Below are positions 11,486 through 14,937 of a stretch of DNA of 64,000 nt, in pieces (positions within the stretch are counted from its first letter, which is position 1; each line of letters begins with the position of its first letter). The stretch is from Cloacibacillus sp. An23 (GTDB lineage: Bacteria; Synergistota; Synergistia; Synergistales; Synergistaceae). A program made the position numbers and the translations under genes. Below the pieces are notes generated by a model. The model did no database searches. It worked only from the letters and a program-made list of their open reading frames with translations, and had not been told where the DNA came from. The stretch covers positions 1 through 64,000 of the forward strand of contig NZ_NFJQ01000009.1 of the NCBI RefSeq assembly GCF_002159945.1, given 5' to 3'.

Positions 11486-12013
11486 TTAATATTCTATGCC
11501 GGCGCGCGCCTGTATCCCATCGCTGTACGGATGCTTGATCTCGCGCATTTCCGTCACGAGCTGCGCCGTTTTTATGAAAATCTCCGGCGCGTTTCGCCCC
11601 GTCAGCACGACCTCCGTTCCCTCCGCCTTTTTCGCGAGGACTTCCGCGACCTCCTCGGCTTTGAGAAGGCCGAAGTCCGCCGCCACGTTTATCTCGTCGA
11701 GTACGACGAGGTCGTATTCGCCCGAGCTGACGAATTCCGCCGCAGCTTCGAGGCCGCGCCGCGCCTCGGCGAAATCTTCCTCAGTCTCGTCGCCCTTGAA
11801 TATGCAGTGAGCGCGCCCCGTGCGTATGTGCGTGACGCCGGGAAGCATGGCGAGCGACGTTATCTCGCCGTATATGGGGCTTCCCTTCATGAACTGCACG
11901 AAGGCGATCTTCGCGCCGCGTCCGGCGGCTCGCAGCGCGAGGCCGAGCGCCGCCGTCGTCTTGCCCTTGCCGTCTCCCGTGTAGACCTGTATCAGCCCTT
12001 TTTCGCCTAGCAT
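11486..12013 (-). CDS. cobO: Cob(I)yrinic acid a,c-diamide adenosyltransferase
   Basis: 175 aa. It transfers the adenosyl group of ATP to the cobalt of corrinoids, making coenzyme B12 forms. The Walker A loop GDGKGKTT spans residues 13-20; VVLDEINVAADFGLL is the Walker B region, and ELVLTGRNAP-type sequence (EVVLTGRNAPEIF) follows, all as in CobO/BtuR. I start at the ATG at 12013 (MLGEKG), because longer forms lack family resemblance. That ATG overlaps the end of nudC by 7 bases, so translation is probably coupled. No other cobalamin gene is adjacent. Confidence 0.92.
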   Translation of the reverse strand: MLGEKGLIQVYTGDGKGKTTAALGLALRAAGRGAKIAFVQFMKGSPIYGEITSLAMLPGVTHIRTGRAHCIFKGDETEEDFAEARRGLEAAAEFVSSGEYDLVVLDEINVAADFGLLKAEEVAEVLAKKAEGTEVVLTGRNAPEIFIKTAQLVTEMREIKHPYSDGIQARAGIEY

Positions 12014-12786
12014 TTTTCCGGACCTCCCCCGTGCCTGCGCACGAAATCCTCTATCAGCCGCGCCGATATGCTTACGCCGCGGTAGTAGTCCGGTATCTCT
12101 TCCGGCGCGAACCAGCGCACATCGCTGACCTCCGTCCTGTCCGGGCATATTTCGCCCGATTCCCATTCCGCGGTGAAGCCGAGCATGAGCGAGCGCGGGA
12201 ATGCCCACGGCTGGCTCGCGAAGTATTTTATGTTTTTTACGCGGATCTTAGATTCCTCGTAGACTTCGCGCGCGACGCACTGCTCGAGGCTCTCGCCGGG
12301 CTCGACGAAGCCGGCGAGCACGCTGTAGCGCCCGGGCGGGAAATTTACTCCGTGGCCCAGAAGTATCTTTCCGCCGCGCTCGACGCAGACGATTATCGCG
12401 GGGCAGATGACGGGATAGGCGAGCTCGCCGCATTTCGTGCAGCGCATCGCCCATTCCTTTTCGTCGAAGACGTTCTCCGCGCCGCATCTGCCGCAGTATC
12501 TGTGCGTCCTCCGCCAGTCCATATAGTGAAATGCCTTGCCGACGCGGAAGAACTGCTCCTCGCCGAGCTCGGCCCAGCAGCTCCGCCGCTCGCGCTCGGA
12601 GAACCCGTCGGGCAGCGCGGCGGCGCCGTCTATCTCGGCCCACTGGTCGGAGCCTCCGTCCCTGTCCACGAGCCCGGAGCTGACGGCCCTTTCCATGAGC
12701 GAGGGCGGAACCTCGCCCGCCTCCGGCACGCGCCCGCCGCCGTCCAAAATCACGCGCCCGTTACGAAACATATAGCACAAAGACAT
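12007..12786 (-). CDS. nudC: NAD(+) diphosphatase, NudC-type Nudix hydrolase
   Basis: 259 aa. It hydrolyses NADH/NAD+ to NMN and AMP; family members also remove NAD caps from RNA. A four-Cys zinc site is at Cys98, Cys101, Cys116 and Cys119. The Nudix box runs from GFVEPGE (159-165) to REVYEES (173-179). The NudC-specific SQPWAFP motif is at 191-197. Full length for the family. The gene overlaps cobO by 7 bases and is upstream of it, so the two form an operon, an unusual pairing with no obvious metabolic link beyond nucleotide chemistry. Confidence 0.93.
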   Translation of the reverse strand: MSLCYMFRNGRVILDGGGRVPEAGEVPPSLMERAVSSGLVDRDGGSDQWAEIDGAAALPDGFSERERRSCWAELGEEQFFRVGKAFHYMDWRRTHRYCGRCGAENVFDEKEWAMRCTKCGELAYPVICPAIIVCVERGGKILLGHGVNFPPGRYSVLAGFVEPGESLEQCVAREVYEESKIRVKNIKYFASQPWAFPRSLMLGFTAEWESGEICPDRTEVSDVRWFAPEEIPDYYRGVSISARLIEDFVRRHGGGPEKC

Positions 12787-12903
12787 TTGCGCCCCTTCTT
12801 TCCAGTCTTTCGCGGATATATCCGAGAGTATTGTACTGGACTTGGCGGCAAAAGAACACTATCATTTATACACCGTATTTTATTTTTTTCAGGAGGGCTC
12901 GTC

Positions 12904-13224
12904 ATGATCGAAAAATTTGAACACGTCACCGCGGAGACGAGGGCGAACGTCTATTTCGACGGAAAGGTCGTCAGCCACACCCTGTGGCTCGCGAACGGCG
13001 AGAAGAGGACTCTCGGCATCTTCATGCCAGGCTCATACGAGTTCGGCACAGCCGAAGCGGAGATAATGGATCTCACAGAAGGAGAATGCGAGGTGCAGCT
13101 TCCCGGCTCCGATGAGTGGAAACCGATGAAAGCCGGCGAGGCTTTCCGCGTCCCCGCGAACAGCAAATACGGCCTCCGCTGCTGCGTCCCGGTGCAGTAC
13201 GTCTGCGCGTATATCAAGGAGTAA
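12904..13224 (+). CDS. ppnP: Pyrimidine/purine nucleoside phosphorylase PpnP
   Basis: 106 aa single-domain cupin (DUF1255, YaiE family). Escherichia coli PpnP phosphorolyses several nucleosides. FEHVTAETRANVYFDGKVVSHT at the N-terminus, KRTLGIFMPGSYEFGT and the C-terminal FRVPANSKYGLR are family hallmarks. CAGGAGGG precedes the ATG at 12904. A hairpin at 13255-13284 ends the unit. The YjjG nucleotidase gene lies about 375 bases away on the opposite strand, which hints at nucleotide salvage. Confidence 0.9.
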   Translation: MIEKFEHVTAETRANVYFDGKVVSHTLWLANGEKRTLGIFMPGSYEFGTAEAEIMDLTEGECEVQLPGSDEWKPMKAGEAFRVPANSKYGLRCCVPVQYVCAYIKE

Positions 13225-13254
13225 CGGCGCGCGTTAAAGTAAAGATCGGACGAC

Positions 13255-13292: not shown

Positions 13293-13301
13293 TGGTATGA
13301 T
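13293..13301 (+). promoter_or_regulatory. Extended -10 promoter of the structured RNA
   Basis: TGG directly before TATGAT (13296-13301) forms an extended -10. The predicted start falls near 13307-13310, a few bases before the closing stem of the RNA. Confidence 0.5.
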
Positions 13302-13306
13302 TCTCC

Positions 13307-13593
13307 GCGACGGACTTTCTAGGTAAGGGAACTCGAAGCAGAAGGTTCTCCCATGGTGAGGTGAAGCCGTGCCGCGAGACTCAGACGGATCCTCTCGGAA
13401 ACGCCGCCGCAGATGGAGACATTTAAGACGGCGAGAGGGACGTACCTTCGGTGCCCAGATGCTCCGATACGTCCCCCTGTTTGACTTACTGCTGAGGATG
13501 CTTAACTTGGCCCTCAAGCATCTCCGGTAGCCGGACTACCAGAGAGTATTTTTGCAGCCCAGCGCCTCCACCGTCAAGGAGACGCGGTTTTTT
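13307..13593 (+). ncRNA. Structured non-coding RNA of unassigned class (6S-like closing stem)
   Basis: A non-coding stretch with its own promoter and terminator. The ends pair: 13315-13325 with 13537-13546 (10 bp with one bulge). Inside are local stems: 13327-13332 with 13345-13350; 13391-13397 with 13432-13438 (perfect 7 bp); 13439-13444 with 13468-13473 (extendable to 8 bp); 13497-13503 with 13516-13522 (perfect 7 bp). A small hairpin, 13526-13530 with 13536-13540, competes with the 3' arm of the closing stem. No open frame here looks coding. It lacks hallmarks of RNase P RNA, tmRNA and SRP RNA. A divergent 6S RNA is the leading alternative. Confidence 0.55.
13562..13593 (+). terminator. 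Terminator of the structured RNA
   Basis: GCGCCTCC (13562-13569) pairs, with one mismatch, with GGAGACGC (13578-13585), then GG and T6. Confidence 0.65.
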
Positions 13594-13598
13594 GCGCG

Positions 13599-14288
13599 TT
13601 ACAGCAGCCCCGTCACCTCGTTCAGATCACTTATCTCGAAATCCGGCTTCGCTTCCGTCGCGTTCGGCGCGCCGTCGGGGTTGTACCAGCAGGTTTTTAT
13701 GCCAGCGCCCGCGCCGCCCGCGATGTCGCTCGTCAGCGAGTCGCCTACTATCAGCGCGGCGGCGCGCTTGTCCTCGCCTATCTCGCGGAATACTGCGTCG
13801 AAAAATTCTTTCGCGGGTTTTTCGTATCCTATCCGTTCGGAGAGGAAGACTCCGTCGAGCAGTTTGCCGAGGCCGGAGCGTGCGAGCTTGCGCGTCTGCG
13901 CGGCTGTCGTGCCGTTCGAGGCGGCGTACTGCTCTATTTTGCCGCGCAGCGAGGCGACGAGTTTGTCCGCGCCGTCTCGGAAGACTATCGTGTCGCCGAG
14001 GCGCGTTTGATAGGCCGCGTTGAATTCGGCGGCAGAGGGGCCGGAGAGCCCTTCTGCCGCGAAGAAGTCTTCGAAGCGGCGCACGAGTATCTCGGCCTTC
14101 GCCATTTCGCCGCGTTCGAGTTTGCGCCAGTATGATTTGTTTATCACGGAATATCGCGCGAGAGCGCCGTCCGTACATTCGCCGAGGCCGAAATCCGCGA
14201 AGAGCGAGCGCATCGCGGCGCGCTCCGCAGCCTTGAAGTCGAGCAGAGTGCCGTCCACGTCCCAGAGTATCGCGCGAAGTCCGCCCAT
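13599..14288 (-). CDS. yjjG: YjjG-family noncanonical pyrimidine nucleotidase (HAD superfamily)
   Basis: 229 aa phosphatase that removes phosphate from pyrimidine nucleoside monophosphates, including damaged ones. HAD motif I is DVDGT (10-14), with Asp10 as nucleophile; motif II is SNGT (124-127); motif III uses Lys157; motif IV is VGDSLTSD (181-188). The helical cap between 15 and 90 and the sequence GYEKPAKEFFDAVF match YjjG. The gene stops 14 bases before the M48 protease gene on its upstream side, so the two may share a transcript reading leftwards. Confidence 0.88.
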   Translation of the reverse strand: MGGLRAILWDVDGTLLDFKAAERAAMRSLFADFGLGECTDGALARYSVINKSYWRKLERGEMAKAEILVRRFEDFFAAEGLSGPSAAEFNAAYQTRLGDTIVFRDGADKLVASLRGKIEQYAASNGTTAAQTRKLARSGLGKLLDGVFLSERIGYEKPAKEFFDAVFREIGEDKRAAALIVGDSLTSDIAGGAGAGIKTCWYNPDGAPNATEAKPDFEISDLNEVTGLL

Positions 14289-14301
14289 AGTCCGTCCCTC
14301 C

Positions 14302-14937
14302 CTATTCCGGAATGACCGCGTCGGGCTCGAGCTCGAGTATTTTGTTCTTGATGTGCAGCATACGGCGGTCGTCCGGCGGATGGGAGTTGAATCCGCTAGG
14401 CTGCGTCTTGCTGACGGATGAGAGCTTCTTGATAGCCATGTACATCCCTACCGGGTCCTCGCCCTGCGCGTGCGCGAGTTCGACGGCGTAGTCGTCGGCC
14501 GCTATCTCCTGCTCCCGGCTCCAGCCCGAGTTCACGAGGTTCGCGCCGACGTTGACGGCGGCCCCCGCAAGGCCGTCTCCCAGTATATTGCCTAGTATCG
14601 CGGCGGCGAGCGACAGGCCGGCGGCGCGGTTCGCGCCGCTCTGGTGGTGGTTCAGCTTCACGTGTCCGGCCTCGTGGGCGAATACGGCGTACAGTTCGGA
14701 CTCGCTGTCGAGCAGGTCGAGCAGGCCCGTCGTGACCGTAACAGACTGCCCGTTCGTGACCCAGGCGTTGGGAGCTTCCTCGTTTTTTATGGAGAACGGA
14801 AGCCCGGTCAGCCCTGTCGGCGCCGCCACTTTGTTCCAAACCCGCCTGGCCTGCTCGTGCGATAAACCGGCGTATGACGGACAGGCCGCCAGAGTGAAAA
14901 TCATCAGCGCGAATGCGAAAATTTTTACCGCTTTCAA
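14302..14937 (-). CDS. M48 family metalloprotease, exported (likely lipoprotein)
   Basis: 211 aa. A signal segment (1-19) ends in LAAC, a lipobox that would anchor the protein by Cys19; ordinary cleavage after SYA is the alternative. The zinc site is HEAGH at 88-92, with the third ligand in EQEIAADDYAVELA. GFNSHPPDDRRM near the C-terminus is typical of M48 BepA/LoiP-type periplasmic quality-control proteases. Short for the family, with no TPR tail. Upstream of yjjG with a 13-base gap. Confidence 0.88.
   Translation of the reverse strand: MKAVKIFAFALMIFTLAACPSYAGLSHEQARRVWNKVAAPTGLTGLPFSIKNEEAPNAWVTNGQSVTVTTGLLDLLDSESELYAVFAHEAGHVKLNHHQSGANRAAGLSLAAAILGNILGDGLAGAAVNVGANLVNSGWSREQEIAADDYAVELAHAQGEDPVGMYMAIKKLSSVSKTQPSGFNSHPPDDRRMLHIKNKILELEPDAVIPE

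Follow-up and report, generated by a model that had tools for sequence, protein, structure and literature searches.

A candidate type I toxin-antitoxin locus with a locked mRNA between ppnP and yjjG in Cloacibacillus sp. An23, and its relatives in Synergistota

What kind of gene occupies the approximately 290 bases that separate a ppnP-like gene from yjjG in Cloacibacillus sp. An23? The element in question extends from position 13306 to 13593 of a 64,000-nucleotide stretch of contig NZ_NFJQ01000009.1, referred to here as the window. The product of yjjG matches NCBIfam YjjG above the cutoff, while the match of the ppnP-like protein lies below its own. In the initial annotation the interval was described as coding for nothing plausible and was assigned to a structured RNA gene, perhaps a divergent 6S RNA or a new Synergistota RNA. 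Most of the signals cited for that reading were found again. An extended -10 is present at 13293-13301 and a T6 terminator at 13562-13593, two perfect 7-bp stems are formed by GGACGTA (13438-13444) with TACGTCC (13468-13474) and by GATGCTT (13497-13503) with AAGCATC (13516-13522), and the closing stem, given as 10 bp, comprises 11 bp with one bulge in the minimum-energy fold of the window transcript and belongs to a 5'-3' lock. An antisense promoter in the same 290 bases had not been mentioned. The features of the locus are as follows.

13293-13301, plus strand: promoter of the sense (toxin) mRNA, extended -10 TGgTATGAT (TGGTATGAT), read from the sequence
13309-13313, plus strand: conserved mRNA 5' end GACGG, 5' arm of helix LDI-a and partner of the terminator loop CCGTC, with compensatory types in homologues
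13314-13325, plus strand: 5' arm of the closing stem (LDI-b), pairing with 13537-13547 in the minimum-energy fold of the window and covarying in homologues
13358-13364, plus strand: Shine-Dalgarno GAGGTGA, locked in homologues in a local hairpin TCCC..GGGA that is shortened in the window copy
13369-13530, plus strand: small ORF with GTG start and TAG stop, 53 aa (MPRDSDGSSRKRRRRWRHLRRREGRTFGAQMLRYVPLFDLLLRMLNLALKHLR), candidate toxin with a conserved frame and a profile match
13425-13541, minus strand: predicted antisense RNA of ~115 nt, its extent set by the promoter and terminator positions, its 3' end weak in the window copy
13434-13478, no strand assigned: stem-loop within the ORF (AGAGGGACGTA/TACGTCCCCCT), covarying, with double changes in 7 pairs
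13537-13547, plus strand: 3' arm of the closing stem (LDI-b) in the 3' UTR, supported by covariation and the minimum-energy fold of the window
13548-13577, minus strand: promoter of the antisense (antitoxin) RNA, TTGACG - 18 - AAAAAT with TG, found by mechanical scan at a site conserved among loci
13562-13593, plus strand: sense intrinsic terminator with T6 and CCGTC in its loop, read from the sequence, its stem covarying in homologues
13571-13575, plus strand: terminator-loop CCGTC, 3' arm of LDI-a, pairing with the mRNA 5' end, with compensatory changes

Folded as a single sequence, the element was only mildly more stable than its shuffled versions (z -2.0, with 6 of 200 shuffles as good; z -2.6 for the reverse strand), so folding alone does not prove a gene and homologues were needed. 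It is conservation among these homologues that marks the window element as a gene.

A DNA search recovered further copies in the window's genome and in its sister species, identified in a scan of the collection as Candidatus Caccocola faecipullorum, a name that stems from chicken-gut metagenomics (PMC8035907). A first covariance model, built from eight copies, gave matches in 15 of 183 genomes of the order. A second model, built from diverged members, matched 20 of the 53 genomes that belong to the window's own Synergistota family. Many of these genomes are fragmented metagenome assemblies, the E-values of the models rest on a brief calibration, simple regular expressions in scripts were used to score some loci, and the promoter and terminator motifs are predictions. 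The window's branch amounts to 49 loci, with up to seven per genome (four in the window's genome, its own copy included) and with tandem copies on contigs G019:C115 and G022:C24; within the genus the copies share about 72-80% identity. Nearly all full-length homologues have TATAAT, TAGAAT or TAAAAT aligned shortly upstream of their conserved 5' end.

In the sister species the interval between ppnP and yjjG is devoid of the element. Window positions 12001-13231 and 13622-14937 align, and the 390 bases between them are replaced by 114 bases with a terminator-like hairpin (L182:1404-1517). This empty site, together with the dispersed and tandem copies, would suit a non-autonomous mobile or repeat element that spreads promoters and stems. 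However, the copies are diverged, with selection on the reading frame and on paired changes, and neither shared flanks nor target duplication are apparent in the alignment outside the element, which makes such an origin very improbable.

Several copies are damaged. One, in the window's genome (L076:1501-1805; G000:C5:147047-147351), has ACG where the start codon should be, as well as a frameshift; it is further decayed than the window copy and retains the 5' and 3' ends and the antisense promoter. In the truncated loci L057 (2358-2585), L066 and L063 the 5' region is gone and what remains is the 3' half, antisense promoter included; in L079 the 5' end is present and part of the C-terminal coding region is missing.

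Searches against known RNAs gave no assignment. None of 4,227 Rfam families reached threshold with the window or its homologues, relaxed searches included, and no match to RNase P, tmRNA, SRP or a riboswitch class was found, as the initial annotation had anticipated. Weak Rfam matches to a plastid 3' UTR and to tmRNA were below threshold and were judged to be chance; a tRNA/tmRNA identity of the window element was rejected. RF00013 (6S RNA) was not found in the nearly complete window genome, and the same search was positive in 5 of 14 control genomes. Exact-motif matches in unrelated phyla and in one viral contig were attributed to chance, since they showed neither extended similarity nor a model match. 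The phage and plasmid collections contained no match to the element.

The alignment of the family pointed instead to a small gene. In its members an ORF of 44-54 codons, opened by ATG or GTG, follows a shared Shine-Dalgarno, GGGAGGTGA, and no intact start lacks this signal. In frame 0, the 23 intact members contain no stops, compared to 42 expected by column shuffling, and the codons that differ are conservative relative to the column-shuffle null (z 5.6; z range 4.7-5.6), whereas z ranged from -2.2 to 2.4 in the other five frames. All close pairs examined had a pS above pN (0.19 against 0.05 in the orthologous L052 and L075, for instance). Codon-position counts over seven close pairs (56, 34, 62) are a weak signal on their own, which would be expected of a sequence under additional constraint from RNA structure and an antisense gene. 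In the window, the frame at 13369-13530 looks coding, and no other frame does.

The claim that nothing plausible is encoded is therefore contradicted by the 53-codon ORF, preceded by a Shine-Dalgarno and conserved in frame through the family. A noncoding structured RNA (divergent 6S or new to Synergistota) with an incidental ORF would account for the strongly conserved structure, with its compensatory changes, and for the lack of an Rfam match. Such an RNA is hard to reconcile with coding z of 5.6 in a single frame free of stops and with a ribosome-binding site at every intact start, and we regard it as scarcely credible; for 6S RNA, the Rfam and genome searches were negative as well. What holds of the proposed RNA gene is that a promoter and a terminator of its own delimit a separate structured unit, which has so far turned up in Synergistota only; the structure belongs to the mRNA of a peptide.

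The predicted peptides (44-54 aa) have a basic N-terminus and a hydrophobic C-terminal helix with nearly invariant Pro-Leu, Glu and Leu. Their best 18-residue KD values range from 1.2 to 2.3, and they are small (<60 aa), hydrophobic and helical, as type I toxins are. In AlphaFold models the C-terminal helix was the most confident part (residues 35-52 in the window peptide, with a similar result for another modelled peptide), at a modest overall confidence (pTM 0.34-0.35). Nothing meaningful was found for the peptides in Pfam, NCBIfam, PADLOC, PHROGs or PDB.

The compensatory changes that the initial annotation had proposed to look for are present. In 15 diverged members, the GACGG/CCGTC helix and the adjacent helix between 5' UTR and 3' UTR were paired in 92.8% of cells, compared to 31-57% when slid. 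Double changes occurred in 13 cells of this lock, whose covariation was matched by none of 500 shuffles (made without correction for relatedness), and the partners observed included GACGG/CCGTC, GGCGG/CCGCC and GACAG/CTGTC. Permutation of loci gave p 0.0003 for the terminator-loop helix (LDI-a), and modest support for the second helix taken by itself (p 0.05 with all pairs counted, 0.02 with Watson-Crick pairs only). Thermodynamic folding on its own does not favour the lock in most members (mean probability 0.26), and minimum-energy folding gave no proof of it; the claim thus rests on covariation. Pairing between the distant 5' and 3' ends, as in hok/aapA-like mRNAs, is predicted on these grounds.

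Local structure over the Shine-Dalgarno, a further property of hok/aapA-like mRNAs, is likewise predicted. Five local helices, including the Shine-Dalgarno hairpin (kept in 83% of cells) and two stems within the ORF, showed covariation as high as in none of 500 shuffles, again uncorrected for relatedness. Because the bases of the local 5' hairpin overlap those of the second long-range helix, the two are alternatives, between which energy models do not choose. The two states suggested for the RNA thus survive in altered form: in homologues it is the 5' segment that can pair either locally or with the 3' UTR, rather than the 3' arm of the closing stem folding into a small hairpin.

The opposite strand appears to carry a second gene. 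A mechanical consensus scan of the window, for which 0.1 promoter-like sites would be expected, reported a single one, at 13577-13548 of the minus strand, and the sites found by the scan in L054 and L077 lie at the equivalent place. A sigma-70 match of at least 9/12 was found anywhere on the minus strand in 43 of the 49 loci (6.6 expected under mononucleotide shuffling), and inspection of positions placed this predicted antisense promoter at the equivalent site, just past the stop codon, in 40 of them. Its -10 nearly always fits TAnAAT, usually with a preceding TG; since the third position varies while the others hold, a promoter fits better than RNA pairing. The -35 overlaps the loop of the sense terminator, and RNA pairing rather than promoter function may account for its conservation. 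In most loci outside the window's genus, a minus-strand hairpin of ~8-17 pairs followed by a T-run lies inside the ORF and constitutes an antisense terminator, whose U-tract is complementary to the Lys-Lys codons of a KKEE motif. The predicted antisense RNA would be ~115-120 nt long and nested in the toxin transcript. At L054:1423-1452, just upstream of a tandem pair, there is an extra strong minus-strand promoter match, TTGACT-18-TATAAT (11/12), possibly a remnant of a third copy.

The window copy departs from its homologues in several respects. Its antisense -10 is AAAAAT, with the first T lost (TAtAAT or TAcAAT in homologues), and it has no antisense T-run; the Shine-Dalgarno hairpin is shortened, an A-C mismatch interrupts the ORF stem, and the peptide has Asn at the position of the nearly invariant Glu. 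The ORF, start, Shine-Dalgarno, closing stem and terminator are retained. The helix of the window peptide, which includes D, R and N, has a KD of 1.23 over 18 residues; it is only moderately hydrophobic, more amphipathic than transmembrane, and is marginally of the hydrophobic type. Probably, the window holds a diverging or decaying copy.

A second branch, in another Synergistota family, was reached through weak profile matches (loci L100, L102, L103 and L184-L213 among them). Its peptides were found in 24 genomes (G098, G109, G117, G089 and 20 others), and 39 loci were examined. They are 42-49 aa long, with the consensus MxxxxxKxRKxTxKKQRRDxLxxIxHLAAAxYWxVRLxLLLWDRFxR, ending in LLWDRF-, and they too occur in tandem arrays, such as four copies on G089:C147. 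A minus-strand extended -10 lies just beyond the 3' terminator in all 37 of 37 loci (0.32 expected), and at least six Watson-Crick pairs join the mRNA 5' end to the 3' UTR in 32 of 36 (5.8 expected). These pairings involve 17 different, partly overlapping sequence pairs, in which the partner of the 5' end was seen, when inspected, to sit in a loop resembling that of a terminator. Only some of the loci show a clear antisense terminator within the ORF. The second branch independently repeats the predicted layout of the window's family. A comparison of the two branch profiles (probability 73%, E 3e-5) makes common ancestry likely, not certain, and the shared position of KKEER and KKQRR is consistent with it.

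The element is best explained, with a probability of about 0.77, as a chromosomal type I toxin-antitoxin locus, or a decaying copy of one, with a locked mRNA and an antisense antitoxin. A short membrane-type peptide, an antisense promoter in cis, a locked mRNA with a covered ribosome site and variable or decayed copies together make up a type I anatomy, as described for such loci (PMC6733600, PMC8309996, PMC4147584). The sequences themselves display the coding frame, the 5'-3' pairing, both promoter motifs, the antisense terminator outside the window's genus and the multiple copies; from these we infer the following scheme, in which both RNAs are produced, the mRNA is activated, the peptide is toxic to the membrane and the antisense RNA neutralises the toxin. 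The plus strand would yield an mRNA of ~285 nt encoding the 53-residue peptide, whose basic N-terminus and hydrophobic or amphipathic C-terminal helix would be expected to act on the cell's own membrane. Fresh full-length mRNA would be inactive, its 5' end engaged both by the loop of its terminator (GACGG/CCGUC) and, through the closing stem, by the 3' UTR, and a local hairpin would cover the Shine-Dalgarno. Trimming of the 3' end would free the 5' end and permit translation, by analogy with hok/Sok and aapA/IsoA. The minus strand would yield the antisense RNA of ~115 nt, starting in the mRNA 3' UTR just past the stop codon and ending inside the ORF, and its pairing with the toxin mRNA may block translation, expose the mRNA to RNase III, or both.

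The toxicity of the peptide is a prediction, some of the helices are amphipathic and not plainly transmembrane, and the chromosomal copies sit between housekeeping genes. The same data could therefore describe a non-toxic small membrane protein, such as a regulator or an envelope-stress peptide, with 5'-3' pairing and an antisense RNA controlling its mRNA. We consider this unlikely: varying copy number, tandem and decayed copies, and presence or absence between sister species fit a toxin-antitoxin locus better, and a 5'-3' lock is a known feature of toxin mRNAs (PMC6733600).

The element recalls several known type I systems. Like aapA/IsoA of Helicobacter, it occurs as multi-copy chromosomal loci with a short candidate toxin and a predicted cis antisense RNA, and the lock and covered Shine-Dalgarno predicted for its mRNA have their counterparts in full-length aapA mRNA, which is inactivated by a 5'-3' long-distance interaction and by hairpins covering the Shine-Dalgarno (PMC6733600). 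No sequence relation to aapA/IsoA was seen, however; the Synergistota peptide has 44-54 aa compared to 30 aa in AapA3, its mRNA 5' end would pair with the loop of the intrinsic terminator, and its antisense RNA would start in the 3' UTR and end inside the ORF. With hok/Sok it shares a membrane-type peptide of ~50 aa, a model of 3'-end processing and refolding, and several chromosomal copies, many of them broken (PMC8309996). In contrast to hok/Sok, no overlapping mok reading frame was identified and the cysteine signature is missing, and the predicted antitoxin covers the 3' half of the toxin gene, not the leader.

In txpA/RatA, bsrG/SR4 and Fst, toxin and antitoxin transcripts are also convergent and overlap at the toxin 3' end, by ~75-120 nt in txpA/RatA and bsrG/SR4 (PMC4147584), whereas the toxin transcript would enclose the whole of the predicted Synergistota antitoxin, whose terminator falls within the ORF and whose -35 occupies the loop of the sense terminator. 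A hydrophobic helix with charged ends is common to the Fst/Ldr superfamily, and the Trp-Asp-Arg ending of the second branch resembles the signature of Trp plus charged tail (PMC7472228); the window's family has no conserved Trp or PxxxG motif and no Pfam match, and we do not place it in that superfamily. The msoT1/msoA1 locus of Microcystis, too, is a type I candidate from beyond Proteobacteria, Firmicutes and Tenericutes (PMC12390103), but it belongs to a different phylum, and its toxicity and antitoxin effect were tested in E. coli, while the Synergistota loci are known from sequence alone.

According to the 2025 paper on that cyanobacterial candidate, type I hosts had until then been only Proteobacteria, Firmicutes and Tenericutes, a narrow range that its authors blame on methods seeking relatives of known loci (PMC12390103). 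The open-access literature searched contained no type I locus from Synergistota. Whether the two branches form a previously undescribed Synergistota superfamily of type I loci with an economical multi-use layout (the lock of 5' end and terminator loop, the -35 in that loop, the U-tract from lysine codons) is, in our judgement, evenly balanced. If true, the terminator loop would lock the mRNA 5' end and, in the window's branch, its DNA would serve also as the antitoxin -35; lysine codons of the toxin (AAAAAA) would encode the U-tract of the antitoxin terminator; and one short stretch would be coding sequence, structured mRNA and antitoxin gene at once. The case illustrates that a short coding gene can pass for a noncoding RNA. 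As the family was found from RNA structure and not from known toxins, it would provide a direct test of the idea of method bias, and the covarying pairing of 5' end and terminator loop would offer a clear, mutable mechanism by which a toxin mRNA may be silenced until its 3' end is trimmed.
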